Below, in pieces: positions 1,468 through 53,825 of a DNA stretch of 64,000 nucleotides. Source of the stretch: Paratrimastix pyriformis. Its lineage: Eukaryota > Preaxostyla > Paratrimastigidae. The position numbers were made by a program, and so were the translations under genes. The stretch's first letter is position 1. Each line of letters begins with the position of its first letter. The notes under the pieces are model-generated. The model saw only the letters and a list, made by a program, of their open reading frames with translations. It did no database searches and was not told where the DNA came from. The stretch lies in assembly GCA_027972325.1 (NCBI GenBank), contig JAPMOS010000057.1:1-64000 (forward strand). Direction: 5' to 3'.

Positions 1468-1533
1468 TTTTCCTCCTCTTCCTCTTCCTCTTCCTCTTCC
1501 TCTTCCTCTTCCTCTTCCTCTTCCTCTTCCTTT
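1468..1533. repeat. (TTCCTC)n microsatellite
   Basis: About eleven perfect hexamer copies in the intergenic region, 80 bases downstream of the gene A stop. Confidence 0.9.
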
Positions 1534-1784: not shown

Positions 1785-1806
1785 CCCCCCCCCCCCCCCC
1801 CCCCCG
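1785..1806. repeat. Poly-C tract
   Basis: About 22 consecutive C in the intergenic spacer between convergent genes. The length is probably unreliable in any read technology. Confidence 0.9.
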
Positions 1807-2370
1807 TATGTATTAACAAGGCAACGCGCCCTATTTTTCAAATCTGGAGGCAAAAACACCGATTTGAAGGTGGGAGGGGCAGAGCCCCAGGGAGATGGCG
1901 AGAACTCCCAGATAAAACACGAATTGGGCATGAAACACACACCGCCCAGGAGACAACAAACAGCCGCGTTCCGTTTGAGAAGGTACATGATGGTCCGTCA
2001 GGTAAGGCCGACACATCGGCCGCCGATACACAGAAGCAAATGAAAGTGAAAAAAAAATGACCCGACGAGGGGACCCGCCTGCCCCCCGTTGGTTCGGTGA
2101 CGGGGCGGGTTTGAAGGGCAAGAGAAAAAGGGCAAGAAAAGGGCGAAAAAAACAAAATGATGAACAACAACAGACAAGAAGCCGCGAAAGAGAGATGATG
2201 AGAGCGAACGGCACGCAGGCTGCAGACGCTTCAAATTTCAAACTCAAATTACCCAACACAGGAAACAACAGGGGAAAAAAAACCAGAGTTCGTGTGGGCG
2301 CGCTGGCTCAAAGGGGAGGGAGGATGAGGTGCCACTGCAGGGGCCCAAGTCCTGACTGCATCGACGGACT

Positions 2371-4784
2371 CTACTGCTGAAGCTGCACGGCCGGACTCTC
2401 GGCAGGGACGGGACTCTCGGCAGGGACGGGACTCTCGGCAGGGATCTCGCCAGGAGTCCCGGTCGGTGCCGGTGGGTCGGGCGCTGGCGCCGGTGGTGAC
2501 GGCGGGGGCGGCGGGGGCGGAGACGAAGGCGCCTCCTCAAGGACAGCCGTCCCAGGGACCGGTGCGGGGGGCTCCGGCTGGCCCAGGTCGATCGGGCCGC
2601 CAAGGGCGCCCGAGGGAAGGGACGTCTCGGCCGCGTCGGGCGGCAGAGGGGCGGGCTCACCGGGAAGGGGGCTCGGGCTCACCGCATCAGGCAGAGGAGT
2701 GGCTGCGTCGGGGGTGGCAGATGAGGAGCGGTACGATTCGATGACCGGGTCAGGGGTCTGGGGGTCCAACGAGGGCTGGGGCGTGGACGAGCTCGACCAC
2801 AGCGGGGACGTGACCCGCTCGGCCCACTTCTCGGCGCCATCTGCGGCCGACCCGACGGCAGCTTCGTGAAGCGGGCAGCTGACAGCCACCTCAACCGCAG
2901 GCTCAGGGGAAGCCCCGGTGCACAGGAAGCAGCCTTCATCCGACTTGCCGTCTGGGGTAGACGGGGGCAGTGGGGACGACGACGACGGCACGGAGCCGGG
3001 GATTTCAACCATCTCCTTGGGCATGGCCATGACACGGTCGCTCTGGGCGTGGCGGCGCCGGTACCAGCGCAGAGCAAGCAGGGCCCCCAGGACCAGGAGG
3101 CCCGTCCCGCAGACGGAGCCCACCACCGAGCCCACGATCAGGCCCACCGCCCCGCCGACGGGCACCGGCCCCAGGAGCACGACCCGCTCGACCACCCGTC
3201 CGTTGCCGCACCCATCGGTCAGCGTGTAGCGGGCCGTCAGGTTGGCCCCGCAGGCCAGGCCCGCGGGCAGCTCGCCCAGCGCCAGGCCCAGCAGCCCGGC
3301 CGGCTGGCAGTCCACCAGGGCCGGCAGGTCGGCCAGCAGGGCGGCCCGCAGCGCGGCCAGGTCGAGGGCTCCCGTCCGGTCCACCGGGCAGGCCGCCGCC
3401 CGGAAGGGCGCCAGGGCCGTGGCGAAGGTGGGGGCCACCGTGTCCCGGACGGGCACCCACTGGGTGGCCACTCCGCCCGAGGGCGTCCCGAAGAAGGTCA
3501 CCACCCGGTACGTGCGCGCCACCAGCGAGGCGCACGTGAGCGGCGTGCCCGCGGGCGCGGCCGGGTCGGGGACGGGGTCGCTCAGGGTGATGTTGATGCT
3601 GGTCTGGTTATCGATGACGAACGCGACCTGCGGAATCGCACCAAGCTGGGCGACGCACTCGGCGGCCTGGGCGGCGCGCTCGGGGAGGCCGGCCAGCGAG
3701 AGGTTGCGCGTGGCCACAATCAGGGCGAAGGTGGTCAGATGGCAGATGTTCACCTCGAACAGCTTGTGGTCGTAGTCGACGTGGGTGTAGGCCGGGCTGC
3801 AGGTCGTGGAGGCGTCGACGTACTGCTGGCTGGCCGGGTCGAACATGAGCAGCACCGGGATCAGGGGTCGCCCGTCGGGCGCCGTCCCGAAGGCCTCGAA
3901 GGACAGCGAGATGGTGATGGGCAGCGCAAAGGCGTACCCCTCGCGGTGGGGCAGGGCCTCAAAGGCCTGCGCGAAACGGCGAATGAAGAGCAAGGGTGAG
4001 TGAGTGGGATGTGTGCAAAGGTGCTGCACTGCGCAAAGTCCATGAATTTCAGATGGGTCGCCTGGGCAACCGTAACCCACCGCGCAACCGCGTCTAGGAC
4101 TGGGGGGCGCCACAGACAAAGCTGTAGTTGCCAAAGTTGAACACGGCGTCGACGTCGGTGGTGCTGGTGGTCGGCATGGGCTCGGGCGGAGTGGTGGCCT
4201 GGGAGGGGGCCACGCTCAGCTGGACGGGGTCGGTCACGGCCCCGGGCGGGATCCGCACGCCGCCGACCACCTTCTTGGTCTCGCCGGGCGGCGGGGGCGA
4301 GTCGAACATGAAGGTGGTCTCGGGCGAGTCCGGGCTCAGGGGCGCCTCGAACGCACCCACGTGCACCCCGGGCGCGCAGAGGACCCCCGAGACGAGCGAG
4401 CTGTTGGAGATGGCCCGCAGGCAGGGGATGTACCGGTAGCCCTCGACCAGCAGCGGCCGCGCCCAGCCCGAGGTGACGTTGGTCCCGACGAGGCTGCTCG
4501 TCCCGCTGACCCGCGACCAGTCCAGGAAGAGCAGCCGCTCGGTGGTCATGGCGGCCCCGTTGGCGGCCCCGTTGGCGGCCGTCGCGGTGGTGGTGAGGTT
4601 GTGCTCCTCCCAGATGCAGTACTGGTACTCGGTGATCTGGCTCAGCGGGGCCGGCCACGGGTCCCACACGATCCTGGCGGTGGTGGAAAGAAGAGGGAGT
4701 GAGGAGGATGGGGCGACGGGGAGGGAGCAGCAGCAGCGGTGGTGGTGGTGGTGGTAGTTGTGTTGGTGGTGGTGACAGGACGAG

Positions 4785-4822
<38 letters not shown>

Positions 4823-5426
4823 ATGGTGGGATGGCGGGATGGTGGGATGGTGGGCGGTGGGTGGGTGGTGGGTGGCGGCGCTGATGACAACAACGGACGC
4901 GAAGAGGTCGGTGACGCTCTGCACCTGGATGTCGTAGCTGAACATGCCCGACCGGACGGTGGCCCCGGCCGTCGTGGGGGCCACCCGGTCCACCCGCACC
5001 GGGTCGGCCGTGGGCGTACCGGTCCACGCCCGCCCCGTTGCGCATCCGCATGACCCCGTACACGGTCCGGTTGTGGGTCCACACCAGGCCTGCTGGCAGC
5101 CCAGGTTGGCCTCGGGCGGGTAGCTGACCCAGGGCGCAATCCGCCGGAAGCCCCCAGCCCCGGGCCGCCCTGGTCGAGCAGCGGCAGCAGGGCCAGCAGG
5201 CCCGCCGAGGTGGCCCCGGCGGCCAGGTGCTGTTGGGCTGGCTCAGGGCGTGGGCGTACTCGACGAAGGACACCTCCATCGCCAGCAGGCCCGACTCGGG
5301 GTCCTCCCAGCCCTGGCCCGGGCCCCACCGCACGCAGAGCCGCTCCATGCCCGCCGTCCAGGCGCCCACCTCGTCCGTGCCGTTGTCCAGGTGGCTCGTC
5401 CCCGCAAAGGCCGGCGTCGCGTCGTA
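2371..5426 (-). other. Gene B exons 99-101: last module, membrane-proximal domain, transmembrane helix, cytoplasmic tail
   Basis: Exons 5426-4899, 4673-4118 and 3966-2371. Exon 99 has the last WEDPESGLLAMEVSF module, then reads coherently only by changing frame about four times between 5215 and 5000. Exon 100 has VGGVRIPPGAVTDPVQLSV and ends at donor GTCTGTGG; exon 101 resumes with FEALPHREGYAFALPITIS and ends the domain at ICHLTTFAL. The IPPGAV...HLTTFAL layout resembles GAIN- or ZU5-like membrane-proximal domains (inference). The helix GLIVGSVVGSVCGTGLLVLG (about 3080-3160) is followed by a basic RWYRRR stop-transfer. The tail of about 220 residues is Pro/Ser/Glu-rich and ends in three PAESPV repeats (2400-2455). 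Confidence 0.7.
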
Positions 5427-35400: not shown

Positions 35401-38400
35401 TGGGCTCGAGGGCACGTGTGGGCGGGGGATGGGGCGGGGGATGGGGGGTGGGGTTTTACCGACCGGAGAAGTTGCCCGCCGCGGCACGGGCGAGCCCCAG
35501 GGCGTCGGCCAGCACCTCGCGGAGGGCCGTCTCGAAGGCGGCCGGCACGTCGATGCCCAGGTCGGCCGCCTCCTGGCGGGCATCCTGCAGGGCCGCCGAC
35601 CCGCCCGCCCCGAGCAGCAGCGCCTCCAGGGGCCCCACGAAGGAGGCCCGCAGCTGGGCCGTGACGAGCCTCTCCAGGGCCGCCTGCACCGAGCCGTTCA
35701 CCAGGGCCACCAGCTCGCTGGCGGCCGTGATGAGCCCGTTGGCGCCGGCGGGCGTGACGCGGGCCACCAGGGCGGGCCCGTCGAGGGGCGCGTAGAGGGC
35801 GCTCACCTCGCCCAGCCGGCCCGCCAGGGCTCGCAGACACAGCGCCGCCCGGGTCGTGTCCACCTGGGCCCGCAGCAGCCCCTCCAGGGCCGCCACCGAC
35901 CCCTCGGGCAGCCCCCGCGCCTGCAGCCGCCCGCTCAGCCGGCCCAGTGCGTCCTAAGGATGGGGATGGGGATGGGGAAGAGGAAGAGGATGGGATCAGC
36001 ATGGGTCGGGATGGAGGTGAGGTAGTGCAAGGAGGGCGAGCAGGCGGTGGGCAGCCGGCGGTGGGCGGTGTGGGCCGGGGGTGTGCGGTGGCCGGACCTC
36101 GAGCCGGTCGACGAGGGTGTCCTCGTAGGCGGCGATGGCGGCCTCGGTCTGGGCCAGCAGCCGCAGCCGGACGGCCTCCCCGCCCAGGGCGATGGCCCGC
36201 ATGCGGGCCGTGGCGATGGCCGTGCCGGCCAGGGACTGGGCCAGGGCGGGCAGGCTCTCGAAGGTGGCGAAGTCGGCCACGAGCCGGCCGAAGAAGCCCT
36301 CGAGCAGGGTCGGGGCCACCACCCCCAGGCCCGCGGCCACAGAGCCGGCCGGGGTGGGCAGGGTGGCGGGCCAGAGGTCGGTCATGTTCTGCAGGGCCGT
36401 CTGCAGCTGGGCCGCCAGGGGCCCCGCGTTGAGCAGGGTCGCGTTGAGGATGTCCGCCAGGTCGGCCACCGTCGCGGCCGTCACGTTGGCCGCCAGCACC
36501 CGGCCGGCGGGGCCCGTGGCGTTGGCGGCGGGGTCCGAGGCGGCCAGCAGGTCGGCGATCTGGTCCTGGATGCGCCCCACGGCCCCCTCGAAGCGGGTCG
36601 GGGCGCTGGCGCTGAAGGGCGCCACGAAGGCCGCCAGCTGGCCGCGGGACCACTCGACGCGCTCCGCCAGGATGGTCGCGAAGGCGTCCTCGAGAGTGCT
36701 CGCTGCGGGGCAGAGAGAAAAGGCAGAGGTGATCATCAACATCCAATCCTCATCATCTTGATCATCATCATCCCATCATCATCATCATCCCATCATCATC
36801 ATCATCCCATCATCATCAACAAACCACCAACAGCACCATCACCATCCCTGTCGGGCGGACCTGCATCGAGTCCGGCCCAATCGACGGCCTCGTAGATGCA
36901 CCGCCCCGCAGCGACGACCGCGCTCTGCAGGGCGACGCGGCTCTGGGCCCAAGTGAAGGTGCCGTTGACCTGCACCACGGCCCCGAGCGGTGCCAGGCAG
37001 GTCCCGATCTTGGCCTCCAGGGTCGCCGCCATGGCGGGCGTGAAGAGCGACCGCACACTGGCCGCGACCTGGTTGCCCAGAGCCACACTGCGGCACGGAC
37101 CACGAAAAAAGACGGGACGAGAGAACGGATCGGTGGGGGGTGGCGTCGTTCAAGGGAGCATGGGCTGTTTCTCGAATGATCTCCGCAAATACATGCTGTT
37201 TCTCGAATGATCTCCGGGCATTCTCACCCGGGACGCGGCGCCACCAGCGAAGCACCCGCCCTCCCCCGAACGAAACGGCCATCCTCCCGGCGGAAGCTGG
37301 GGCTGGGGAGGCGAGCCGACCTGGCCGTGAGGGCGACCACGCGCGCCTTGGCCGCAACAGCGACCCGCTCAGCGGTCTGGTTCAGGGCCGCAAGCGAGGC
37401 GACGGTCGTGTTCTGGAGGGCGGCGCGCAGCTGGCCGGCCAGGCGGCCCTCGAGCGACGCGACGACCCCGGCAAGGGCCTGTCACCGAGGGGATGGGACA
37501 GGCGGTGCGGGGGACATATGAGCGACTGAGCGACTGAGACGACCCCGGCAAGAGCCTGCGAGGGGGGCCAATGGCAAACCACCGACCTTGGCCGTGACTC
37601 TGTCGAGGGCCCTGGGGACGTATGTCTCCGGGTTGAGCAGCGCCTGCCAGCCCACCCCGCCGGAGATCGAGGCCATGGCATCCCGGAGGCCGTCCGGGCT
37701 GAAGGCGGCCTGCAGTCCGGCGGCGAGGCCGGCCCGGATGTCGTCCGTCAGGTTGGCCGACGGGACGAAGGCCGAGGGCAGGCGAGGCTGGGCCCCGTTG
37801 AAGGCGGCCGGGATGGGGATCTCGGGCATGGCCAGCATGGCTGGGCCCGCCAGCCACGTGCCCAGGGCGATCCGCGACTGGTCGAGGGCCTCGGCAAGGA
37901 CCGGCTCCACCGGGCCGGACAGCGCCACGGGGTCGGTCAGGGCCCACTCCTGCACGAAGACCGCGCCCTGGGCCTGGGCACGCACCTCCTCGGCCTGGGC
38001 GGACCCCTCGATGACCGACTGATCGGCACCGCCCGCCTCGGACCCGCCCGCCTCGGAACCCTCGTTCGAGGCCGCGGGCCGGGTGCGCGTCAGCCGCCAC
38101 ACCTGTGCGAAGAGGGCGTGAAAACCAACGCGCGTGTGGCGGGGCGGACCTTGGCGAAGGCAGCCCGAACGGGGCCGAGGGCCGGGTCCAGGACGGGCCC
38201 GACCAAGGCGTCCAGGCGGCGAGTGGCCAGGGTCGAGACGTCCCCGAGCAGACCGGCAAAGGCGGCCTTCACCTCGGTCAGGGCCGCCTCCACGTCGAAG
38301 CTCATGTCGCCTTGCCCGACGCGAAAAAAAACCCAAGTCAAAGTCAGCTCGCCGCACCCGGACCACCTGGCTTCGGCGCACCCTCACGGCGAAGCCAACA

Positions 38401-41400
38401 GACCAGGGAGGGGCAGCACGAAGCCTGCGCACGCTGCCTGCACGAGGGCCACAAACTGGGAGCTGTTGATGAGGCCCGGGCCCAGGGCCTGCTCGACCAG
38501 GGGCACCATCTTCACCGCCAGGGGCTGGCCCCCGGCCGCTTGCGCCCGGAGGGACGTCAGGGCCTCCCGGAGCTCCCGGGCAATGGCCGCGTCAAAACCG
38601 GTGGCCAGGGTCGCGGCCTTGGCGCGCAGGCTCGCGTCCAGGCTGGCCGTCAGGGAGGTGCGCACGTTGGTCAGGAGCTGGGTCTTGACCCGGGCCCCGT
38701 ACTGGGCCAGGTTGCCCAGGAGGGCCTCCTCGAGGGACTGCCCGCCCAGGGTGAGGCCCTCGAGGGCGTCCAGGAAGAGGGCCGTCAGGTCGTCCGGGGC
38801 GATGAGCCCCGCCAGGGCTTCCTGGTACAGGCCCACCACCGCCTCGCTGGGCACCGCGGCCCGCACGGCCTCCGACGAGCGCATGATGAGCCCGTTCAGC
38901 GTGTCCGTCGCCCGGGCCGCAATGCCTGCCGTGGGCCGTCAAGCGCAGAGGGGCCAGTGAGGCGGGGGCCCGGGAGATGGGGGGGCGCAAGGGGGGCGTG
39001 GGGGGGATGGGGATGCCAGAGCATGGCGGCTCGTGAGCTGGCGGACCGTAGATGGTGGGGTAGAGCAGGGTCCGCGCCTGCTGGGTGGCGTTGGCGGCGA
39101 GGGTGTCGCCCAGCTGGGCGAGCTGGCCCTTGATCTCGGCCCAGACGTTGGCCAGGGCGGCCTGCATCTGGTCCAGGATGGGCTCCTCCAGGTTCAGCGA
39201 GTCCGCCAGGGCCCCGATGACCGACCGCACCCGGGCCGCCGGGTCCCCGATCGCCCCCACCAGCAGGCCCTCCACAGCCGGGGCTGCCCACCACCACAGG
39301 AGGGACAAACGCAATGACATGAGGCCCCGCCCCGGAACTTCCAGATCATCGTGCTCTCTTCCAATTTCTCGCTCAGGCGCTCCAGCAATGGGCAGACTGT
39401 TCTCATCCCGTGTCGAAAATCGGTGGGGTTTTCGGGGGGTCTGGCCAGGGTCTTTGCGTGCGTTTGATCCAACACGAGTACAAAACACAAAAACTGGCGA
39501 ATCGGCCAGCCGAGTGGGGGCAGGGGGGCAGGACACAGACCGAGGTCGGAGCCGACCGCGCCCATGGCCCGGATCGAGTCCATGGCCCGGGACATGATCA
39601 TCGGAAACTGGCGGGCAGCGGCCGGGGCCAGCGCGTCCCCGATCCGGTTGAGGCCTGCCGAGAAAAACCATGTCGGGGGTGAGGAGCGGAAGGTGCAAAT
39701 GAATGGGGGAAAACCGTGTGGGGGTGAGGGGAGACGGCAGGTCAGGGGCGTGGGGAAACGAATGCGAAAAAGTGGTGGTGGTGGTGGTGGTCACCAGCAA
39801 CCTTGGCGCACACCAGGAATAGGGGCGGAGGCCTGTCCGCGCTGGGCGGCAGACCGTTCCTGGTGAAGTTGAGCACCCACCCAAGCAGGGCCTCCTTGAC
39901 GACGGGCACCATCTCGTCGACGAAGGCCACCAGGCGGGGCTGGACCTCCTTCTCGATGAGGCCGCCCAGCCCGTCGAAGATGCCGTTGGTGCGGGCCGCG
40001 ATGCCCAGCTGGCGCTCAACCCAGCCGGCCGAGTGGTCGACCAGCCCCAGCAGGAAGCCGCGGATGGCCTCGGGGGTCAGGGTCGCCCGGATGGCGTACT
40101 CGAGGCCCTCAACCAGGCCCTGAGCCTGCCGGAACATGACCCAGAACAAGAAGATTGTTGCGGGTGTCACACAGACGCAGACACAAAGACACATGCGGCA
40201 CGCACGGCACAGAAAACAGCAAGCCATCCCGGGGTGGCCTCCATGGCGGACCTTGCTGCCGACCAGCTTCTGGACGGCGGGCCGGTTCTTGGCCAGGGTC
40301 GCGTCGAGGGCCACCGAGCTGATGTTCACCAGCCGGTCCACCCGCCCGCTGGCGGCCGTGCGTGCCCAGCGGGTCATGTTGCGCAGGATGGGAAGCTGGG
40401 AAGGGAGACCGAGCAATGATGAGCATTTCAAAGAGCGACGGCGGTTGGGGGGCGGGACCTTGAGGCTGTTGAGGGCGCCCATGCTCTGGTCGATGAAGCC
40501 CGTGGCCATCTGCTCGAGCAGGGTGGGGAACTGGACCGCGATGCGCGGCGGGATCCGAAGGAGAGCGGCGGGGCAGAGCGCAGAAGGGGAAGAATGAGGA
40601 AGGAATCGCGGGGTGGAGAGGGTTTGCCGTCGGGGGAGCGGAGGATGGTAAATGTGGGTGCCGTGTCGAAACGAGGTGGTTCTGGTGGGCAGTCATGACC
40701 GGCCGGACCTGGGCGAGGCCCGAGGGGGAGAGCAGCATGTCCAGCTGGACGCCCTCCACGAATCGGTCCAGCAGCGGCCCCAGGGCCGAGGGCTGCAGCA
40801 GGTTGCGCATGGTCTGGGTGAATGCGTCGGCCACCGTGACGGATCCGGTCACGTTGAGGACCTGGTGGTAGGCCACGGCGGACAGCCTGGGGGATGGGTG
40901 AGGATGGGGATGAGGGGGTGGGGGTGGCGTGAGCAGAGGAGGATGGGGGCGCAGGGACAGGGACAGACTGGTCGAGCTTGGGAGCGGCCGAGTTCGTGAG
41001 GGCGGCCACACCCAGGTGCATCGTGTCCTTGAGCATCGACGTCATGTTAGCCTGATCCCATTCGGAGGCAGACGAGCAGAAAACCGCCCAGAAAACCGCC
41101 AAACAGCCCAGAAAACCGCCAAACCGCCCCAGAAAACCGCCCCAGAAAACCGCCCCAGAAAACCGCCCCAGAAAACCGCCCAGAAAACCGCCCAGAAAAC
41201 CGCCCAGAAAACCGCCAAACAGCCCAGAAGAATGTGTGAGCGATCTTCCGCCAAAATGCGCAACGTCTTCTTCCCCTGTCCACCCAACGCAAGGCGGCGA
41301 GGGACCTTGAGGTAGGTGACGACGCTGTCCTGGGTGTCTGTCAGGAAGGCCTTGCCGCGGGTCAGGAAGATGGCGACAATGTCGGTCGGGTGGGCCATGA

Positions 41401-44400
41401 AGTCGTCCATGAACCCGACCACGAAGGCTCGCACCCGGTCCACCGAGACCACACTGCGGACGGCCCCCTCGAAGGCCTGGGTCAGGGCCGTGGAGCCGGT
41501 GGTCTTGTTGATCCACCCGCGGGCGCTGCCCAGGGCCCCGTCGATCATCAGGCTGAAGTTGGCCAGCCGGGGCTCCAGCAGGGACAGCACGAAGGTCCGC
41601 GCGGTGGCCGTCAGGTTGCTCATGAAGTTCTGCGAGGCCTGGCTCAGGTGGCCCTTGGCCGTCGCGGTGAAGTCGTCCACCGTGGCCCGGTAGATGGCCC
41701 CCAGCGAGCTCTGGAAGTCGAACCGGTCGATCAGCCGGCCCAGGAAGTCCGTGATGACGGCAGGCTCTGCGGGGGGGCGAGGTCGAGAGAAGACAGGAAC
41801 CACCCTGTGAATCCACCGACGATCTCTGCTCCTTCAAGGGGCAGGTGGGGGGGCAGGTGGGGGGCAGGTGGGGGCAGGTGGGGGGCAGGTGGGGGCAGGT
41901 GGGGGCAGGTGGGGGGGCAGCGTGACGGACGTGCGAACTGGCGGACGGAGGAGACGAAGAAGCTGGCCATGGCGTCGGAACCGGTCTGCCCGAGGATGAA
42001 CGCCTGGGCGGGCAGCAGGAGCTTGTCCAGGGCGGCCGTCATGCCGGTCTGCCACTGGGCGAACTGCCCCTGCAGGAAGCGCTTGGCGATGGCCGTCAGG
42101 TTGGTCCGCACCCGCTCGATGACGCCCACCTCGATCCGCTGGGTGTACTCGGCGAGCAGGGCTAACCGGCAGGACAACAAGGGGGATGAAAGGTGGGTGG
42201 GATGAGGCGCAATCTCGCGAGGGTGGGGACTTTCCAGAAGCAGAGGCAGATCCGGCAGGCAGGGGCCGCGACGCCCGGGGGGGCAGGTCGGCAGACGGAC
42301 CGTCATAGACGTCCTGGAAGGAGCTCGGGCCCGTGCCGAGGATGGCGTCCAGCAGGGTGTCGAAGAATGGCCTCAGGGATCCCGTGCCCAGCGCGTCCTA
42401 TCGCCAGTCGAAGCGCATCCGTGAGCCGGGGCAGCCAAGGGGCGGCGAGTCGTGCGTGAAATGAGTGGTGTGCGTGTGCGGACCCTGAGGGCTGCCCTGC
42501 CGAGGGCGCCCAGCTCGGTGGACTTGGTCAGGACGGCGATGCGGGTCTCGGCGGCGGCGGTCAGCTTGACCAGGAGCGGGTCCGCCTTGGCCAGGGTCGC
42601 GTTGATGACGAACATCAGGCTCTCCTTGGCCGCCAGGGTCAGGTTGGTCTGGCCCCCCAAAAAAAAGGTCCCGCACCCAATGTGAGCGCCGGGTGATGAC
42701 TGTGGTGGCTGGTGGTGGCCGGCTGTGACTGTGGTGGCTGTGGTGGTGGAGGCGGCGGGGGCAAGGCGGGGGCCGGACCTTGATCTCCTGGCCGAGGGTG
42801 TCGAAGCGGGCCCGGACGGGGGCGATGAGGCCGCTGTAGAGGTCGTCCCACAGGGAGGTGATCGAGTTGAGCCCGTTGAAGTCGTTGATCAGCTTGGTGA
42901 AGAAACTCTGCAGCCGGTTCGGGTCTGGGGGGGCCATCAAGCAGCCAGAAATCACAGGGCAGGTGATGATGAGTGTGATGATGATCGGATGAGGGTGCGT
43001 GGCGATGCCCACCAGGGCGGGGCGGGGCCGGGGGCGGGGTACGGACCGGCGAGGACGCGGACGGTGCTGTCGAAGGTGGCCGCGAGCATCCGGTTCTTGG
43101 TGACGGCCAGGATCTCCGCGCTGACGGTGGCGATGGCCCCGTTGGCGGTGGCGGTCATCTTGTTGATCTGGGCCGTGGCCACGGCCGTCAGGCGCTGCTT
43201 GACGTAGCCCAGCGTCTCGCCCACAATGGTCCGCATCACCTGCCAACCAGCAGTGACGGAACGGGAGGTGATATCGACGAGGGGTGATATCGACGAGGGG
43301 TGATATCGACGAGGGGTGATATCGACGAGGGGTGATATCGACGAGGGGTGATATCGACGAGGGGTGATATCGACGAGGGGTGATATCGACGAGGGGTGAT
43401 ATCGACGAGGGGTGATATCGACGAGGGGGGTAAGAGAGATCGATCGTGGAATGGGATGAGGACAAGGCGGCGGAGGGGACGGACCGTGTCCTGGACCTTG
43501 GCGCCCAGCTGGGAGACGAGGCTGCTGACGATGGGCCCGATCGAGTCGACCCCCTTGAAGTTGGTCGTCACCTCGCTCACCAGCCAGCCTGCAACGAGGG
43601 ACGAGGGATGACCGCGGCATGCCACCGATGAGCAGAGAGGAGCAGAACAGGCGGGGCAATGGAAGGGCGTGCTGGCTTGCGGTGTGCCAATGGTTCGTAC
43701 CGGTGGCTCGTACGATGGTTAGGACCAATGATGAGTGCGGATCATGTGGTGGGGAACGGCAAGCGGTTTCTCATCGAGTTTGCCGGGGCTGACACGAAAA
43801 AGCTGCGGAATGTCGTGTCGTGTCGTGTGTCGTGTCGTGTGTCGTGCCGTGTGTCGTGTCGTGGCGTGGCTGGTGGCGGCGGACTGGAGAGGTTGGCGAG
43901 GCAGTTCTGGACGGCCGTGGTGAAGACCCCCGCGAAGGCGGTCAGGTCGGCCGAGCTGCTGCTGTTGCTGCTCAGCTTGAGCGACTTGACGATGGCCAGG
44001 GTCGTGTTGGCCAGGAAGGGCGCCACGTAGCGCTGGGTGACGTTCTGTCCAGCCCCAACGCAAGCATGCAGCGTGTAAATGAGCCTCAGGCTATGCCAGG
44101 AAGGGCGCCACGTATGGCTGGGCGACACTCGGCCTGGACTCCAATCAGGTACGGTGGGGATGTTCGCGAGTGTCATTCTGGCCAGCCCCCCAAACGTACG
44201 TGTGGTCATCCGCGCGGGGCGGGAGAGAACGATGGGGGACGCACGACGGGACCTGAAGCACCCCATCGAGGGCCCTCTGCAGGAAGCTGCCCGCGGCCCC
44301 GAGGGCCTGGGTCAGGAGCGAGTCCATCAGCCCGTCGAGGTCGCCGAGGGACCCGTCGGCGCGCGAGAAGGTGTCCAGCACGGGCCCCACGTGGTTCATC

Positions 44401-47400
44401 AGCTTGGCGAACTCGTCCATCTTGGCCATGACCGCGTCCGCCTGGAAGGAGGAGGGGGAGGAGGACGCCAGATCGAATCATCGTCCGATCATCATCATCT
44501 TGGCCATGACCGCGCCGGGGGACCCCCCCAGCGGCGAGACAGTTGGGTGAGTGACGCTTGGATGGCCGAACTGTGTGGGGGTGCGCCGGGCAGCTTCGAA
44601 ACACCGGATGAATTGCGTGCTGTGTGGCTCCTGGTCATGCGGGGCTCAAAGTACACCCCACCCCAGCTTTCGGTCTCATCCGATCATTGGCCAGGCCATC
44701 GGCACATGGCCTCGTGTGTCCCGATCATGGCTCAAAGGACACTTCAGCCTTCGCCGTCCGATTGGGGAAACCGAAAGTGGGTGTGCAAGCTCTGCGGACC
44801 TTGTCGAGGGAGGGCTCGAGCTGGGTCAGGAGGGTGTCCATGCCGGCCAGGAAGGCCCGCACTTGGGTCGTGGCGTCCAGCAGGACGGCCCCGCTGGCGT
44901 TGCCGTAGAGCAGCAGGGGCGCGTACTGGGCCTGGCAGACGGCCAGCGGGTTGGCCAGGACGGCCGCCTTCAGGGCTGCCGCGAGGGACATCTGATCGGC
45001 GAAGGCCGTCAGGCTGGACGAGAAACACAAAACAAACGAGATGAGGCGCTGGCCAGGCATGGCACGACGCATCTCCCAGGTGATGCTCTCTGGATGAAGC
45101 ATCTGCCAGTGATCATTCAGCGCCCTGTCACATCCGCGCTTCCAAGGCCTGATCTGCTCCGCATCGACACCAACCAACCCACTCTGCTGTCCCCACGAAC
45201 TACTGCAGCGACCGTCATCCGCCTCTGCCCGCGCCCACTCCCATCCACTCATCATTATCAGCATCACCATCAGTCATCGTCCTCATCACCATCGCCACCA
45301 TCACCATCGTCATCATCGTCATCGTCATCGTCATCACCATCGCCACACATCAGCATCTGCATGATGCTCTGCATGAGGCGAGGCGCATGTGTTCAGCATG
45401 ATCGAATGCGACCGATCCGATCCGAGGGGTGTGTGCTGTGTGGACAGACCTACCCTGATGGGCGGCCGACAGGTTGGCGGCCCGGAGGCGCACGGTGGCG
45501 ATGGCGTCGCGGGACATCTGGAAGGCGTCCTCGGTGTAGCCGGCGATGAGCCCGTCCAGCTGCAGCTGGCTGGCGTCCGTCACGGCGGGCAGCCCGTCCA
45601 TGTCCACCTGGGCCACCACGTCCTGGACCATCCCCACCACGTCCAGAACCTTCTTCACGGTGCCCAGGCCGCTGGACATGTTGAAGACCCGGTCCGTGAT
45701 GGGCTTGATCTGCTGCTGCAGCCAGCCTGTGGGGAGATATGGTGGTGATGATGGTGATCGGATGATGATTGGATGATGATTGGATGATGATTGGATGATG
45801 ATTGGATGATGATTGGATGATGATTGGATGATGATGATGATTGGATGATGATTGGATGATGATGATGATTGGATGATGATGATGATGATTGGATGATGAT
45901 GATTGGATGATTGGATGATGGTGCGACGCAGTGGTGACGGGGTATTGCATGTTGAAAAGAGGGCGGACCGCTGAAGAGCTCGCCATCGGAGAGGACAGCC
46001 GTCAGGCGGTCGGCCTGCTGGAGGCCCCGTTCGATCTTGTCGAAGCCGGTCGTGACCATCGAGACGGTGGTGGTCAGCTGGGTCACGTAGGGCAGCATCT
46101 TGGCCCGGGTCCCGTTGGCGAACTGCTCGAAGGCCTGCCCCATCAGGGCCACGCCCTACAACAGCACAAACGAGGGTGAGGATGGAGCGGGGGCGGGGCG
46201 ACGGGGCGGCGGGGACCTTTGTGATGGGGTCCAGCGGATCGCAGTTCTCGGCGAACTTGAAGAAGCCCTCGACCCCGGTTTTGGCCCGGCGGATCCAGAC
46301 GTCCACCAGGTCGACAATGGGCACCACCTTGTCCATGAAGGTGCCCACGGTCCTGCCCAGGAGGGCCTGCAGGGGCGCCAGCACCTCGAAGATCTTGCCC
46401 ACGATCGACTCGAGCGAGGCGAAGGGCGACTTCCACGAGAACCCGCCAGCGAGCTGGCCGCGGCCCTCGAAGAGGGTGATGTCAACGATCAGGGCGTACA
46501 GCTTGCCCTGGGCAACGTTCTCGCCGTTGGCTGGCCGGCAAGAAACCAGAAAGAACGAGACCCGCATAAGGTCAATGCGAAGGGCAAGGCGAAGGGAAAG
46601 AAGGAGACGCGCATATGGCATATGGCCAGTGCAAAGGGGCAGTAATGCGAAGGGCAGACCGTCAAACATGACCCCGAAGAGGCCCGCCATGAAGCGGGCC
46701 TGGTCCCGCAGCATGAGGCCCGCCTCGGCGCCCACCTTGTGGCTGCCGAGGGCCTTCATGTAGTCCTTCAGGAAACCTGCAGCCATGAACAAGCAGGCCG
46801 GACAGGAGAGGGGTGGGGCGACCCGAAGAGTGACTTCAGGGAGAGTCCTTCGTCCTCATCCATCATCATCATCCAATCATCATCATCCACTCATCATCAT
46901 CCAATCATCATCATCCACTCATCATCATCATAACAGTCATCATCGTCATCATAACAGTCATCATAATGTCCTTCAGGAAACCTGTCCAAAACTCCAAAAC
47001 GGAAGATTGCCAGACCTCCCGTGAACTCGATGCCCACCAGGGTGCGCCCCGTGAAGTCGGGTCCCAGCCCGTTGGCCGCATCCCGCTCGGGGTGCTCGGC
47101 GCGCTCCTTGAGGGCCGCGTAGAGGCGTTCCCGGTCGGCCCGCAGCTGGGGGTCATCGGCCTCGCCCTCCGCGGGCAGCGGCCGGGCCAACAGGGCCTCG
47201 AGGCGCTCCATGGCCGTGCGGGTGGCCAGGTCACGGTCGTAGTGCTCCGGCCTGGTGATGAGAAGCAATGAGAAGAGCAGGCCGAGCCCAATCATCGAGT
47301 CATCGTCCAGTCATCATCATCCATCAGATCATCATCGTGGCCGTCATCATCATCATCATCCAGCAGCAGCAGCAGCAGCATCCCCATCAGCATCATGGGA

Positions 47401-50400
47401 GGGGCAGGGGGCACCGAGCGGACCGCTCCATGAGGGCGAGCAGGTCGGCCAGGTCGCGGTCGGTGAACCCGTACCGGGTGGCGTCCCGGGGGGCGGCCAG
47501 GCCGGCCGTCTTGACCCGGGGGTGGTTGGCCAGGTCGGCCGGCAGGTGGGCCGCCCCCAGGCCGGCCAGCTCCTCGCCGCCCAGCTCGAGCAGGGCCGCC
47601 CGCAGGGAGCGCCCCAGGTGGAAGGGCATGGCGCTGGTCCGCTGCAGGTCGCCCAGGAAGGACAGCGACATCGACACCAGCGAGGTCTCGTTGGCCAGCA
47701 GGCCTGCCCGCATCCCACCCCCACCCACCCCAAAGGCAGAAAGGAATGCCGTGCGGAGAGGACGATGAGGTGGGGGCACGAAGGATTCTGCGCCGAGAAG
47801 ACAAGGAAAACGAAGTGGGGAGCCCGAAGCGGGTCGGCATGTGTCTGGGCGCGTGGTGTGCGGCGTGGGGCGTGTCGCGGACCGGTGGCCATCTCGAGGT
47901 CGCCGCTGGGCAGCCGGGTCAGGCCGCCCGTCCGCTGGGCGCGGCGCATGTTGGCCACGTGGCAGCCGAGGAGGCCCCGCACCGCATCGTCGACCGCCCC
48001 CAGGGCCGGGTGGGCCCGCAGGGCCACCTCGCCCTCGGCAAGCTCACCCCGGGCCACAGCCTGGTCGAGGGCCTCGGCCGTCTGGGGCACAGTCGGAGCC
48101 GGAGTGCCGGAGCCGGAAGAAGACAGTGTGAAGCGAACAAGCGCCGTGATGATGATGAAGGCCACCCAAGGAGCCCGCTCATGGGGCAATGGATGGGAGG
48201 AAGAGTGGGAACAGGGCAAGGGGCCCGACCTGAGCGGCGAGGTCCTTGGCGGCGTTGCGGAGGGCCTCCAGGGCCGACATACGCACTGTGGGCCCGCCGC
48301 CCCAACCCAACCAACCAGGGGGACAACGGGGGGGGCCAGTGATGAGGCGCGCACGGACTGCAGGTGTGCGGGGCAGGGCAGGGCAGGGCAGGGCAGGGCA
48401 GGGCAGGACAGGGCAGGGCAGGGCGGCAGGGGCACGGACCGGGTTCGTACTCGTGGCCGTCGGCGTAGGCCTCGAGGAGGGCCTTGACCACGGGCCGGGG
48501 CGCCCAGGCCACGGCCCGCCGGAGGGCGAACAGGGCCGCCGTGCGCAGCTCGGGGGCGCGGTGGCCGGCCAGGGGCAGCAGCAGCCCGGACACCTCGGCG
48601 GGCAGGGGCCCCGCGTTGCCCAGGGCCGCCAGGGCGCCCGTGCACTGGTACAGGTCCACCCCGGGCCGGCAGGCCTCCCGGGCACGGGCCGCCAGGCGGG
48701 CGTAGGCCTGCCGGGTGAACTCGTCCAGCCCGGCCAGCTCGGGGACCGCCTCGTTGGCCAGCTGCCGGTCGGCCGGGGCCGGGGACCCGTTGGCGTTCGT
48801 GGCGGCGGCGGGGGCTCCGGGGGCGGGCAGGGGCCACTGGTAGAAGTCGTCCGCGGCCAGGGCCTCGGCATCCACCTCGTTGGCGTTGGCGGCACGGAGA
48901 GCCTCCACCCGCTGCCGGGCAGGCGCAGGGGGAGGCAGAAGACGGAGGGGGCCGGGGATGAGCACATGATGTGCCGGCTGGGGTGGGGGCCTCATGGGCA
49001 GGGGGCTTGGTCAGGGTCAGGGGCTGGGGCAGGGGCGGGGGCAGGGGCGGACCTGGTGGGCGGTGGCAACCCGGGCCAGGTGGCGCAGCCTGACGGCGGC
49101 CATGCGGTCGTGGAGGTGGCTGCCCAGGGCCAGCCCCGCCAGCCCGCTCAGGGGCAGCGACCGCTGGGCCCGGCCCCGGCTGCCCAGCTCGCTCTCGTCG
49201 CCCTCGTAGGCCTCCGGGGCGGCGTTCATCATGGCCTTGACCTCGGCCACCGTCGGGGCGGTCCCTTTGTACGGCCAGTACGGGGCCGGGCCCCCGCCCA
49301 CGTGCTTGGGGGCCCGCGGCACAGGGTCGGCCCGCCGCTGGGGGGGCAGCGGAGGCGGCACCCCGTCGTCGGCCGCGTTGCCGTTGGGGTTGCCGTTGGC
49401 GCGGCCGGGGGCGTCCAGGGGCCGGTCGGGGTCGGTCAGCACGGCCTCGGGGCCCTCGACGTCCCCCGCGCGGCGGTCGGCCCGGTGGCCGTCGTAGAAG
49501 GCCTGGTCGATGACCGTCGCGTAGGCCTCGCTCAGCGGGGTCGGCTGGGTGGGATCCGCGTTGGCCCCCGCCGCGGCCAGCTGGGGGTCCAGCGCACGCA
49601 GGGCAGCCGAGATCTGCCCCGACGGGATGGGATGGGATGGGATGGGATGGGGATGGGATGAGTAATGGGATGGGTGATGGGAATGGGTAATGGGGATGGG
49701 ATGGGTGAGGGTGAGGGCGATGAGTGATGGGGGGCTGGGTGGGACGGGGGCTGGCCGGGCGGACCGATGGGGCTCGAGCGAGCAGGTCGCGTCGGCGGGC
49801 CTCCCAGTCGCGGGCCCGCTCCTCGGCAGCCCGGTCCTCCTCGAGGGCCCGCGCCTGGAGGGCCTCCAGGGCCGCCACCAGCTCGCGGGTGGGCCGCTGG
49901 GTGCCGGCGCCCAGGGTGTGCATGGTCAGCACCAGCTGGCGCAGGTGGGGCTCCTCGAGGCCCCCGTTGGCCGGGTGCTCGGCCGACAGCAGCCCCGCCA
50001 CGCACCGCTGGGCGGTGGGCGTCCCCAAGGCGCTGAGCAGCCCCAGGGCCGCGTCGAAGCGGGCCAGCTCGACCGCACTCCGGGGCCGCCCCAGGGCCAC
50101 AAGCTCCAGCAGCCGGCAGGCCATCCGCGAGCCGCGCTGCCCCCGCCCGCCCATGGTGACGGACGGGGTCAGGTGGGGGATGGGCACCGGGGGGGATGGA
50201 ACGATGGCGGTGAGTATGCGGTGACGGACGGAACGAAGGGGATGGGGCCGGGCACAGCGGGGGGGCGGGCTGGATGGCCAGGGGGTCTGGAGGGGAGGGT
50301 GGAGGAGGGGCGGACCGGGTCGGCGGCGAAGAACTTTTGCATGTCGGCGAAGCAGTACGAGGTGTTCTGGTCGAGGGGCGAGATGCCCTCGGCCTGGTTG

Positions 50401-51978
50401 CTCAGCCGCAGCAGGTCCGCGCACCTGCCGCCCCGCACCGCCACGGACCCAACCAGGGTGGCCACGCACGCAGGAGAAGGCAGGCCCAGGACGCCATCAA
50501 GAAGAGGCAGGCCCAGGGAGGCAGGCCCAGGGCGCCATCATGAAGAGGCAGGCCCAGGGCGCCATCATGAAGAGGCAGGCCCGCCCAGGGAGGCAGGCCC
50601 AGGGAGGCAGGCCCAGGGAGGCAGGCCCAGGGAGGCAGGCCCGCCCAGGGAGGCAGGCCCAGGGAGGCAGGCCCAGGGAGGCAGGCCCAGGGAGGCAGGC
50701 CCAGGGAGGCAGGCCCAGGGAGGCAGGCCCAGGGAGGCAGGCCCAGGGAGGCAGGCCCAGGGAGGCAGGCCCAGGGAGGCAGGCCCAGGTCCAGCCACCC
50801 ACCACTCCCCCGGGGGAGGGAGACAGGCTGTGCAGGGCCTGGGGGGCGGACCGCTCAAGGTGGGCCCAGCCCTCGGCCAGCTTGTCGTCGCCCTCGGTGG
50901 CGGCGGCCATCATCTGCTCGAGGCTCAGCCCGGCCGCCCAGGGGGCTCCGTTGGCCGCGAAGGCGGCCGCCTGGGCCTCGAGCTCCTCGTCGGCGGGCGG
51001 CTCGGCCCCCTCGGCCAGCCCGTTCCGGGCCGGGTCGCGGGCCTTGGGCCGGATGGCCAGGCCCTCGTCCCGGAAGCCCAGCCGCCGCAGGGCCGCCCCC
51101 AGCCGGGGGCGCCCGTTGATGGTGTTGTGGTTGGCGGCGTGGGCGGGGCGGGGCAGCTCCATCCAGTGGGCGTTGGGGTCGCTGGCGGCGGCCAGCTGCA
51201 GCTCGGGGGCCAGCAGGCTGTTCATCCCGGGCCCGTCCACCAGCCGGAGGGCCGCCCGGCCGCGCATCCGGGTGAGGCGCTCCATGCCGGCCGGCAGGTC
51301 GGCCGTCGTCTGGGCCAGCAGGGCCTCCTCGCGCCCGTACAGCTCCTCCGGGTCCACGGGCGGCCCGTTGGCCTGGGCGGCCCCGTCCAGGGCCAAGGTC
51401 GCATCCTCGGGGCCCATGGGGACCCCCACCAGCTGCTGCAGGGCCGTGTCCACCGCGAAGCGCACCATCTGGGCGGCCTCGGCCTCCCGGGGCACCAGAA
51501 AAAGGGGCCCATTGGTCGCTCCCGCGTGAGGCAGGGGGCACGGGCCCAGCAGCTGGCGGGTTCGGACGGAGGTTCGCATGTGGGTCCCCTTGCGGTGCGA
51601 TGAGGCCCTGGTCAGGCGGAGCAGGGACACCTCGTTGCTGGCGGAGTCAACCCTGGCCATGCTGCTCTCGGATGCCGGCTCCCACTGGGCCCGGTAATGG
51701 ACCGCCGCAAGACCCTGCGGACCCGGGTCCATCGAGCGGTACAGGGTGGGTGCGTTCCCATTCTTGGCGGGGGAGGTGGGGGGCAGGCGGTGCTCGAACA
51801 GGGAGACGAGCTGTTTCACGGTGGCCTCCCCGAAGGGAGCGACCCCGTCGGGGTACCAGACACGAGAACACAAGCCAGTCCTGGGAAATTCCGCGGCTGA
51901 ATGGCGGATGAAACGCAAAAAGAGGACAGACGTCGCGGAGAACTCGGCGAAAAAGTGAGCCGGAATGTCGGAGGTCAC
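2371..51978 (-). CDS. Gene B: giant fusion of a large-lipid-transfer-protein head, helical stalk, FN3-like array and single-pass membrane anchor
   Basis: One gene of about 101 exons on the minus strand. I joined exons using acceptor AG and donor GTCYG sites and checked that each exon length carries the phase needed by the next; this works from 51978 down to about 12.8 kb without a break. The order is LLTP N-sheet and LPD_N helical domain (exons 1-7), beta-type region (8-13), long amphipathic helical region (14-68), propeller-like and Cys-rich beta region (69-78), FN3-like modules (79-100), then membrane-proximal domain, helix and tail (101, stop TAG at 2371-2373). Predicted length is about 11,500 residues. 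The true N-terminus is not settled: the open frame at 51978 starts with GTG, and a small upstream exon is likely. Apparent frameshifts exist near 12.75, 11.1, 6.88 and 5.0-5.2 kb. Likely role (inference): surface receptor or adhesin that binds lipid or lipoprotein. An alternative is two genes, but no stop or initiation signal separates the parts. Confidence 0.72.
3048..3966 (-). repeat. Inverted-repeat arm, gene B copy (partner of 6-917)
   Basis: The reverse complement of this arm matches the start of the window almost base for base from GAGGCCCTGCCCCACCGCGA to CGCTGGTACCGGCGCCG. The two arms point away from a spacer of about 2.1 kb holding both tails and the intergenic region. Confidence 0.85.
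5570..5635. repeat. (CAGCC)n pentamer repeat in gene B intron 98
   Basis: About twelve pentamers just below exon 99's upstream junction, within the intron between exons 98 and 99. Confidence 0.85.
10066..10151. repeat. (GGCGG)n pentamer repeat in gene B intron 90
   Basis: About seventeen near-perfect copies between donor 10172 and acceptor 9933. A G-rich strand of this kind can form G-quadruplexes; on the coding (minus) strand it is C-rich. Confidence 0.85.
12718..12890 (-). other. Unresolved junction between FN3-like modules
   Basis: Exon 87's frame reads LVDSEEVLATRRQ and stops at 12722-12724. The next module (VDAGALTIVAAFELGREG) is in another frame. Candidate introns either are under 40 bases or use a donor that gives the wrong phase. 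A 1-base indel or an ultrashort intron are the simplest explanations. Confidence 0.5.
15049..20479 (-). other. Gene B exons 79-86: first half of the FN3-like array
   Basis: Exons 20479-20308, 20260-20105, 20010-19774, 19624-19497, 19433-19271, 19164-18869, 18730-18596 and 18394-15049. Each module of about 100-120 residues has a W..C.DPESG turn, then a strand ending in a LGT motif, then YYATV/VRCTN-RAG, then VD-TPP. Examples: CTDPETGIASYELALGT, RYYLTLRCTNRVGLQTYQ, LVIDQEPPTPGTVYDGY. Exon 86 is 3,346 bases without an intron and holds about eight modules in a row. These are fibronectin-III-like beta sandwiches common in protist and invertebrate surface proteins; binding partner unknown. A long antisense open frame (15229-18450) is a shadow. 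Confidence 0.75.
18420..18575. repeat. GATGATGACTG-type microsatellite in gene B intron 85
   Basis: Repeats of gatgatgactg(g) between donor 18595 and acceptor 18395. One of many ATC/GAT tracts confined to introns. Confidence 0.85.
20567..23048 (-). other. Gene B exons 69-78: propeller-like segment followed by Cys-rich beta domain
   Basis: Exons 23048-22945, 22809-22248, 22186-22076, 22014-21809, 21752-21616, 21558-21489, 21397-21265, 21205-21044, 20983-20811 and 20731-20567. Exon 70 has PSILAFMGPKDGALKKL, LVVKDFVYVMNGTGHM, a segment around MLWAADSHEAGH and GWMVGYPLGSNG; this recurrence of short beta blades with W/Y and G suggests a beta-propeller-like fold (inference). Exons 75-78 are strongly beta and Cys-rich: VVVPCDVSLILRGSFKVAM, VGIGIRCTIMETSLIPI, FKLCLKCRFWVFGINCW. 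I do not recognise this domain. It links the helical stalk to the FN3-like array. Coding is less GC-rich here than in the FN3-like exons. Confidence 0.5.
23147..27991 (-). other. Gene B exons 52-68: amphipathic helical stalk, part 4
   Basis: Exons 27991-27854, 27658-27332, 27264-27093, 26947-26724, 26560-26333, 26274-26206, 26134-26027, 25957-25756, 25530-25368, 25284-25134, 25043-24919, 24816-24609, 24484-24097, 24043-23898, 23794-23666, 23561-23494 and 23357-23147. Helices alternate with short loops; examples are GGLVTQPLKDFQGMIVTFL and VNGVIGASDVARKQL. Exon 64 ends at the only GTTTG donor of the gene, with a 53-base intron. The last exon brings the first cysteine pair for a long stretch (QCSADLCMHTLP), marking the border to the next domain. 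Confidence 0.6.
28112..29965 (-). other. Gene B exon 51: single 1.85-kb exon of continuous helical sequence
   Basis: An uninterrupted 618-codon exon between acceptor CAACAG and donor GTCTGA, the largest in the stalk. It is Ala/Leu-rich and helical throughout, with N-x-T/S sequons (NLTACYRAALPVAG, NVTAATELIVGIFGGQFGG) and only three or four cysteines. The absence of introns contrasts with the roughly 100-200-base exons around it and suggests intron loss or a recently expanded block. A long open frame also exists antisense (28088-29989), but it lacks splice-phase support and gives low-complexity protein. Confidence 0.65.
30821..30888. repeat. ATCATCCA-type microsatellite in gene B intron 47
   Basis: Tandem atcatccaatc units fill most of the short intron between exons 47 and 48 and run to within a few bases of the donor GTCTG at 30893. 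Confidence 0.85.
31878..31978. repeat. GAT microsatellite in gene B intron 44
   Basis: gatgatgat with atgatgaatg interruptions, wholly inside the intron between exons 44 and 45. A similar tract at 33236-33305 sits in intron 40, and another (ATCATC) at 36735-36820 in intron 35. Confidence 0.85.
37165..37220. repeat. Short tandem duplication in intron 34
   Basis: gctgtttctcgaatgatctc occurs twice, about 28 bases apart, in the intron between exons 34 and 35. Confidence 0.9.
37460..37565 (-). repeat. Copy of exon 34's 5' end inside its upstream intron
   Basis: On the + strand gacgaccccggcaagggcct (37462-37481, exon 34 start plus ac of the splice site) recurs as gacgaccccggcaagagcct at about 37539-37558. 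The intron copy also carries a CAG acceptor at the matching place. Confidence 0.8.
41077..41229. repeat. AGAAAACCGCCC-type tandem repeat in gene B intron 23
   Basis: About a dozen units of (c)cagaaaaccgcc with small variants fill the intron between exons 23 and 24. On both strands it stays open in several frames and produces spurious repeat proteins. Confidence 0.85.
41842..41918. repeat. GGGGGCAGGT tandem repeat in gene B intron 22
   Basis: About eight copies of gggggcaggt with length variation, within the intron between exons 22 and 23. Confidence 0.85.
43269..43428. repeat. Ten perfect copies of a 16-mer in gene B intron 17
   Basis: The unit TGATATCGACGAGGGG is repeated ten times without a mismatch that I can see, next to the acceptor of exon 18 (43239) and ending before donor 43484. 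Its perfection implies very recent expansion. Confidence 0.92.
44030..44145 (-). repeat. Copies of exon 16 and exon 15 starts in their upstream introns
   Basis: aggaagggcgccacgta occurs at about 44015 (exon 16) and again at about 44098 in the intron, each followed by a ctggg(t/c)gac block. A second case lies at 44421-44445 (exon 15 start, cttggccatgaccgcg) and 44499-44514 in the next intron. Confidence 0.8.
45735..45935. repeat. GATGATTG-type satellite in gene B intron 12
   Basis: About 190 bases of gatgattggatg units with internal GAT expansions between exons 12 and 13. The same TTGGATGATGA core recurs at 30.8, 46.9, 53.7 and 58.2 kb. Confidence 0.85.
46845..46965. repeat. ATCATCCA microsatellite in gene B intron 9
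   Basis: atcatcatccaatcatcatccactc units followed by ATC/GTC repeats. Next to it, at 46968-46986, is a copy of exon 10's first bases (ccttcaggaaacctg) together with a CAG acceptor-like site. Confidence 0.85.
47295..47395. repeat. ATC/CAG microsatellites in gene B intron 8
   Basis: A patch of atcatcatc and a (CAG)7-like run within the intron between exons 8 and 9. Confidence 0.8.
48366..48428. repeat. (GGGCA)n repeat in gene B intron 5
   Basis: About eleven pentamers in the intron between exons 5 and 6. The same pentamer occurs at 9688-9712 in intron 91. Confidence 0.85.
49620..49720. repeat. GGGATGGGAT repeat in gene B intron 3
   Basis: Irregular gggatgggatggg units between exons 3 and 4, directly against the acceptor of exon 4. 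Confidence 0.8.
50490..50790. repeat. AGGCAGGCCCAGGG minisatellite in gene B intron 1
   Basis: About twenty copies of a 14-mer (gggaggcaggccca), with two longer variants containing gcgccatcatgaag, filling the intron between exons 1 and 2. Confidence 0.9.
50852..51978 (-). other. Gene B exon 1: LLTP N-terminal sheet region
   Basis: Open from 51978 to the donor at 50851 (GTCCG). The segment around VKQLVSLFEH (about 51.8 kb), then a Tyr/Trp-rich stretch (VHYRAQW) and VSLLRLTRASSHRKG resembles the order in vitellogenin-type N-sheets (an 'ILSLLQ' helix, a Y-x-V-x-E-x-G strand, a 'KT' strand). Its end (LSLEQMMAAATEGDD, about 50.9 kb) leads into the helical domain. Upstream, a short exon ending LGSRSLFSLAKK (about 52.02-51.98 kb) could be joined by an intron GTGACC...CCCAG to the frame starting TGLCSRVWYPDG; phases agree, but I cannot prove it. 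A signal peptide is expected for this family and was not found. Confidence 0.55.
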
Positions 51979-51984
51979 TTCTTC

Positions 51985-52453
51985 TTGGCCAGGCTGAAGA
52001 GCGAGCGGCTCCCCAGAGTATATTCTATGAAGAAACTAATGAGGGAAATATTCCATTTCCGAAAAGGACCTCGGTGTCAGAATGCGGAATTCAGCGGTAG
52101 TTGTTGTGGATACATTTTGGATCATCAGGCGGAGGTCAACTGTGGCTCGAAGGAGAATATGGTCATTCCCGTTTCCCTACCGAACAAAAGTTACCCCGTA
52201 TTTTGCCAAGACAGTAGTGGAATGACCTGTTGGCCATAAGCCAGGCCGTGGGTTTCGGCTTCAAATGCGTATCGTAAAAATGGGGAATCGATAGATAACG
52301 CTCCACATACAAAGAAAAAAAGAAGGATCCAACAACAAGGCACGCTGTAACGTGCCCTTGGAGGCATCCGTTCAAAACAAAACAGGAAGACTGTCGGCTT
52401 TCCGCGGGTATCTAAACCAGTGACCCAATTTAGTCCAGGTCAAATCAGTCATA
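51985..52453. promoter_or_regulatory. Divergent intergenic region between genes B and C, likely bidirectional promoter
   Basis: About 450 bases, clearly AT-richer than the rest of the window. It contains gtatattctatg at 52018-52029, an A-rich tract at 52309-52321 and no open frame that joins either gene by a clear splice except the possible short first exons of gene B. Gene C starts at 52454. I see no sharper promoter motif. Confidence 0.5.
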
Positions 52454-52519
52454 ATGGGGCACCTTAGATGCCCGGCTATTTTCGTTTTTTTTGTTGCGCC
52501 TTGTTTCGCGGCATGGTGG
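52454..52519 (+). other. Gene C signal peptide
   Basis: A basic residue at position 5, then a hydrophobic core (AIFVFFVAPCFAA), with small residues before WWADTLCN for cleavage. Targets the protein to the secretory route. Confidence 0.8.

Positions 52520-53504: not shown

Positions 53505-53563
<59 letters not shown>

Positions 53564-53737: not shown

Positions 53738-53825
<88 letters not shown>

Follow-up and report, generated by a model that had tools for sequence, protein, structure and literature searches.

The window, i.e., the whole stretch of 64,000 nucleotides that was analysed, corresponded to positions 1-64000 of contig C449 from Paratrimastix pyriformis, a free-living, oxygen-shunning protist of the Metamonada, and carried a predicted giant gene. 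A gene finder based on codon and splice-site signals was trained on the window itself, and its model was then refined by hand. On the minus strand, the resulting chain ran from a predicted ATG at 52367 to the stop codon in the last exon at 2371 and joined 111 predicted exons into 11,428 amino acids with zero stops. The best chain score over this span with the refined parameters was 5551 for the minus strand versus 597 for the plus strand, which served as a control. The 110 predicted introns were 41-436 bp long (median 138), with 107 GT and 3 GC donors and with AG at all 110 acceptors. Some introns held minisatellites, namely a 16-mer in ten exact copies at 43267-43428 and GAT/CAT-rich arrays in others.

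The exons at the 5' end were guided by the homologue P0001 and contributed the signal peptide and the first strands. Comparison with the paralog on contig C223 led to a shift of two exon edges and to the removal of two micro-exons produced by the gene finder (45366-45349 and 33292-33226). Judged by its sequence, the predicted chain at 52367-2371 can be taken as confirmed to be a real coding chain; the individual exon edges were predictions, chiefly in the long GC-rich exons. A first-pass annotation of the same DNA had placed the end of the gene at 2371 and its product at about 11,500 residues, and the refined model agreed with both. On the other hand, its start at 51978 gave way, guided by homology to P0001, to the predicted ATG at 52367, and its count of about 101 exons rose to about 111. 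The parts of the gene were as follows, from the start codon to the stop codon.

52367-52227, 52176-52070, 52024-51932 and 51880-50852, minus strand: first predicted exons, guided by P0001
52292..52367, minus strand: start codon and predicted signal peptide (residues 1-26), from a hydropathy peak at residues 8-26
50852..52289, minus strand: N-sheet-like part of the head with a linker (exons 1-4), from paralog alignment
47016..50424, minus strand: helical HEAT/Vitellogenin_N-like part of the head (exons 5-12), from Pfam matches below the cut-off
46217..47046, minus strand: short beta stretch from residue 1209, past the helices, kept in paralogs
23266..46237, minus strand: divergent helical repeats (about 4,670 residues, 1356-6020) with 73 N-glycosylation sequons, from internal repeats and the helical moment
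20815..23251, minus strand: Cys-rich beta domain (residues 6025-6587), from own-genome matches and the beta moment
21369-20815, minus strand: strongly amphipathic sheet (residues 6442-6587), from the beta moment
4231..20694, minus strand: FN3-like array with DPESG motifs (residues 6601-10860) and 65 sequons, from the motif count
3168..4276, minus strand: juxtamembrane extracellular domain, from collinear copies in a tail search
3072..3165, minus strand: transmembrane helix (residues 11165-11196) followed by RWYRRR, from hydropathy
2371..3069, minus strand: Pro-rich cytosolic tail with zero sequons and the stop codon, read from the sequence

The predicted acceptors were CAG and the predicted donors were GTCCG-like, with 59 of the 110 starting GTCCG and 21 starting GTCTG. 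Searches of the organism's own genome (56,060,509 bases in 495 contigs) with Rfam found eight matches to the U1 snRNA on contigs C24, C212, C231, C349, C388, C441, C482 and C495; they scored 50.8-60.2 bits and did not reach the Rfam cut-off of 69.5. The first 32 bases were identical in all eight copies and opened with ATACAGACCTTG, so that every copy had AUACAGACCUUG in place of the AUACUUACCUG of the Rfam consensus, and one pattern search of the genome found no U1 with the usual start. In the changed U1, a G faces donor position +3, which was C in 104 of the 110 introns of the gene, and an A faces position +4 (C in 70/110 and T in 27/110), where a C stays mismatched. The one copy of U6 that was read had the usual ACAGAGA. 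It looks, from the sequences, as if U1 and the 5' splice site had changed in a compensatory fashion, and the change at the 5' end of U1 supports the unusual GTCYG donors of the gene model.

The gene was one member of a family that occupied no fewer than seven loci in the P. pyriformis genome. For paralog C223, the gene finder was applied unchanged from 55 kb, and its protein was assembled from three pieces, namely an N-terminal reading, a main model and a tail model. It matched 93% of the length of the window protein with 49% identity. Every one of the 23 windows of 500 residues aligned (33-66% identity), including the doubtful zone at residues 5001-6500, where the identity was 48-54%. Moreover, 27 of the 110 introns had the same position and phase in both genes, whereas 200 shifted controls shared 2.3 on average and never more than 8. 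The head, the beta domain and the tail followed each other on the same strand in C223, C452, C443(-), C441 and C101, the last being weak throughout (E 8e-5, 1.5e-5 and 9e-6, respectively). At C443(+), the contig end came before the tail, and at C494 the beta domain was found but the head and the tail were not. Among the public models, P0122 (7,794 aa, contig C443) spanned the signal peptide and reached into the array, covering window residues 14-7876 in three pieces with 83, 73 and 67% identity. The earlier claim that the span is one gene was backed by the C223 alignment, by the collinear loci and by P0122. At the level of sequence, an open collinear chain from the predicted signal peptide to the membrane helix was conserved in the paralogs.

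When the head was used as a query, the only protein retrieved was PAPYR_1474 of P. pyriformis. P0122 had been named 'putative DNA double-strand break repair Rad50 ATPase'; nothing seen in our analysis of it supported this name, which probably reflects the long helical part. The published annotation of P. pyriformis is described as using RNA-seq intron hints (PMC10703272), and we infer that P0122 stems from it. Two further public models, P0001 (1,743 aa) and P0123 (4,231 aa), were partial. The analysis also singles out a gene family whose members the public annotation had split or called 'Rad50'.

The predicted protein had the layout of a type I membrane protein. Hydropathy revealed a single leader at the N-terminus and a single membrane segment towards the C-terminus, in keeping with the membrane helix of the first-pass annotation, and positive residues stood behind this segment. 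There were 150 sequons ahead of the membrane helix and 0 behind it. Ahead of the helix, the juxtamembrane domain matched no Pfam family, and a similar part was present in P0124, a homologue from another eukaryote. The array contained 9 strict DPE[ST][GER] motifs (300 shuffles gave a mean of 0.01 and a maximum of 1) and 11 motifs under a looser pattern, which did not confirm the approximately 20 DPESG modules that had been reported before. As for its FN3-like character, also claimed earlier, the Pfam family fn3 was unmatched in P0123 and in the window stretches scanned, which lay outside the helical repeats, and PF00041 was present only as a precomputed annotation of the homologues P0124 and P0125.

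In the helical part, 14 of 231 window pairs reached an hhalign probability of 50, and the mean helical hydrophobic moment was 0.251 versus 0.196 after shuffling; the helical stretch that had been described earlier was upheld, but its length of about 5,000 residues shrank to the value given above. The Cys-rich beta domain had 48 matches at E <= 0.001 in the own genome, located at eight further places or in the window itself. Within this domain, the sheet at residues 6442-6587, whose limits were picked by eye ahead of the test, had the top beta moment in the whole chain (none of 283 windows equalled or exceeded it; z 6.0 versus shuffles) and also its highest hydrophobicity. The matching sheet in five homologues reached z 4.4-5.6, and between 0 and 7 windows of each protein scored as high (P0125: 7 of 146). 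Such a sheet may be lipid-facing; ordinary beta cores can be amphipathic too.

The head comprised about 1,330 residues and resembled the lipid-bearing head of the large lipid transfer proteins (LLTPs), which include lipoproteins of animal egg yolk and blood. Like them, it would enter the secretory path, as a leader was predicted by hydropathy, and the paralogs P0001 and P0122 shared the same kind of N-terminal beginning. The N-sheet-like part aligned with P0001, C223, C443(-) and partially C452. The Pfam family Vitellogenin_N (PF01347, LPD_N) has a cut-off of 24 bits and matched four of the five heads scanned, one of them above the cut-off. Namely, the head of C443(-), whose sequence was hand-joined from predicted exons and reading frames, passed at 29.6 bits (E 3.5e-7), and the heads of the window (20.0 bits, E 2.9e-4), P0001 (19.8 bits, E 3.4e-4) and C223 (head piece, 19.4 bits, E 4.5e-4) were below it; the Pfam scan left the head of C452 unmatched. 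The LLTP-like head of the first-pass annotation was supported by these matches. The more specific expectation of a Vitellogenin_N match in exons 2-7 was borne out only partly: the family was recognised in C443(-), but the match in the window stayed at 20 versus 24 bits and was located in exons 8-9 (profile positions 460-556).

When the head of C443(-) was cut apart, the N-sheet stretch (profile 89-150) gave E 0.013 alone and the helical stretch (profile 430-554) gave E 5e-4 alone, in collinear order. The N-sheet followed by the helical domain was found in C443(-) only; such paired stretches were absent from the other family heads scanned, and the N-sheet piece of P0122 had no Vitellogenin_N match in Pfam. 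A HEAT superhelix alone would not yield the N-sheet match in C443(-). Plain HEAT families also matched the heads weakly in Pfam. Two further Pfam matches to the head, DUF826 and Taeniidae_ag, were dismissed as chance.

Pfam showed no match to the LLTP sheet families, vWD, DUF1081 or the MTP lipid-binding family in the stretches scanned. PDB sequences compared with the head by phmmer and by profile search yielded nothing, and neither did an NCBIfam search with two proteins. A six-frame search of the own genome for PF01347 was also empty (2 candidates scored), but it says little since the control was detected in 0 of 14 genomes. In hhalign, the head scored no higher against mammalian MTP than against its shuffled version in any of 5 regions and with 2 profiles, which was a weak test since the MTP profile contained only mammals (named proteins among the best 120 of 660). 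Since homology to MTP was undetected, we filed the gene as LLTP-like and not as a proven member. It is nevertheless likely, though not proven, that the predicted head belongs to the LLTPs as a distant member.

Homologues of the protein were found in ENA records of other eukaryotes. P0125 (5,960 aa) had the same order of parts as the window protein, with a head, helices, a beta domain (residues 1506-2078) and an array; in comparison to the window protein, it was shorter, had far fewer helical residues, and showed no membrane helix at the end of its model as far as this was read. In style it may resemble animal proteins. The family profile matched residues 1-760 of P0125 twice and in order: a helical stretch with E 0.004 and a probability of only 8.2, and a beta stretch with a probability of 93.4 and E 2.4e-7, which corresponded to the stretch after the helices in the window. 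The profile score was 67.3, compared with a maximum of 22.9 in ten shuffles. Pfam matched only HEAT families in the head of P0125. P0124 (6,776 aa) was likewise shorter than the window protein and shared with it the array, the juxtamembrane domain, a hydrophobic segment at the C-terminus and, in part, the beta domain, but its model had no head. The idea that the fusion is unique needs to be qualified in view of the equal order of parts in P0125.

The LLTPs (vitellogenin, apoB, apolipophorin II/I and MTP) and the window protein had in common a signal peptide, an N-sheet-like start, a HEAT-like superhelix, a large size and the Vitellogenin_N match, which was above the cut-off in one paralog model. 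Unlike them, the window protein had a membrane anchor, an FN3-like array and long helical repeats, its beta stretch past the helices was short, and its similarity to MTP was undetectable. It resembled FN3-array adhesion receptors in its long array of extracellular modules with DPESG motifs, its single membrane helix and its sequons on the outside; it differed from them in that an LLTP-like head, helical repeats and an amphipathic sheet preceded the array and in that Pfam did not recognise fn3 in the window stretches scanned. LDL-receptor relatives, likewise large type I membrane proteins with a part in lipid traffic, bind a separate lipoprotein, whereas in the window the lipoprotein-like module sat inside the anchored chain itself. 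PMC1783640 and PMC9219001 discuss LLTPs in animals, where they are described as the basis of lipoproteins. Our literature search, which covered few subscription journals, found nothing relevant on protist LLTPs or on such a fusion among the matches listed, and the main text of PMC10703272 had zero mentions of vitellogenin, lipoprotein, lipid transfer or fibronectin.

We propose that the gene encodes a giant type I membrane glycoprotein whose LLTP-like tip and beta sheet handle lipid on a long anchored stalk, a reading in which our confidence was evenly balanced. The matches described above support a distal tip built like the N-terminal module of LLTPs, with a predicted N-sheet, a HEAT-like superhelix and a short beta stretch. 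The handling of lipid by the head and the beta sheet, the role of the stalk and the uptake or transfer at a membrane are inferred. The head and the conserved amphipathic Cys-rich sheet would hold lipid or hand it over, the long stalk would consist of helical repeats plus FN3-like array, and the membrane helix would anchor the whole assembly either on the cell surface or inside an endomembrane lumen. Lipid could be taken up, for example from bacterial prey, and then passed to the cell's own membrane, so that the protein would work as a lipoprotein tied to its own anchor. In LLTPs, sheets form the cavity that holds the lipid and the helical subdomain braces them, as outlined in PMC9219001; here, sheets of this type would be separated by the rod, and the short beta stretch at 46217..47046 is a possible remnant of them. 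If the proposal is true, lipid is handled on a stalk rather than in a secreted particle.

A second reading, possible but somewhat doubtful in our view, is a giant adhesion or feeding receptor, in which the HEAT-like head would be a protein-binding scaffold without lipid and the rod and the FN3-like modules would reach prey or substrate. The FN3-like array, the sequons and the membrane anchor are typical for adhesion proteins, and both the weak matches to plain HEAT families and the noise-level comparison with MTP would fit such a receptor; the ordered N-sheet and helical stretches of Vitellogenin_N in C443(-) and the conservation of a hydrophobic amphipathic sheet argue against it and for the anchored lipid carrier. 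It is improbable, but compatible with the layout of head, rod, stalk and anchor, that the chain is a precursor from which cleavage, during secretion or once at the surface, frees the head and the helical part as a soluble lipoprotein. The parallel would be apoLp-II/I (apolipophorin II/I), which, like crustacean apoCr, is described in PMC1783640 as being cut by a subtilisin-like protease.

That the chain unites two or more adjacent genes, with the join of the helical part and the array being an artefact of gene finding, was rejected as highly improbable. In its favour, P0001 and P0123 cover parts only, and a gene penalty of 4 makes the gene finder split the predicted chain at 33.2/33.1 kb; this break is the site of a dropped micro-exon and not the junction of helices and array. 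Against it, none of the 31 introns that lie between 28.5 and 19.5 kb exceeds 225 bp, the length of the longest, and the join is spanned by the C223 alignment, by collinear parts in five other loci, by the single public model P0122 from head to array, and by P0125 of another eukaryote over the same extent.

The occurrence in a metamonad of such a large LLTP-like protein tied to a membrane, together with the same order of parts in another eukaryote, would make the origin of the LLTP module directly testable. Tentatively, and with more doubt than belief, we suggest that the LLTP module predates animals. On this view, an early eukaryote already had a giant membrane-anchored LLTP-like receptor with a helical rod, an amphipathic sheet and an FN3-like stalk, descendants of which persist in metamonads and in one distant lineage or more, and the lipoproteins that animals secrete would be a derived branch without the anchor.

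A head-to-head neighbour of the gene on the plus strand (52454-64000) continued beyond the window, and its ATG at 52454 was located 86 bases from the ATG at 52367. It had a hydrophobic leader and FN3-like/DPESG modules, and no LLTP-like head was seen in the portion read. At the other end, positions 1-917 on the plus strand were the tail of another, converging copy and formed an inverted repeat 94% identical to 3053-3969 on the minus strand. A similar convergent pair of tails was found on contig C403, at 4492-5419 (plus strand) and 7482-8422 (minus strand), one of them with 2 TGA. The convergent tails in C449 and C403 are perhaps an allelic or duplicated junction.
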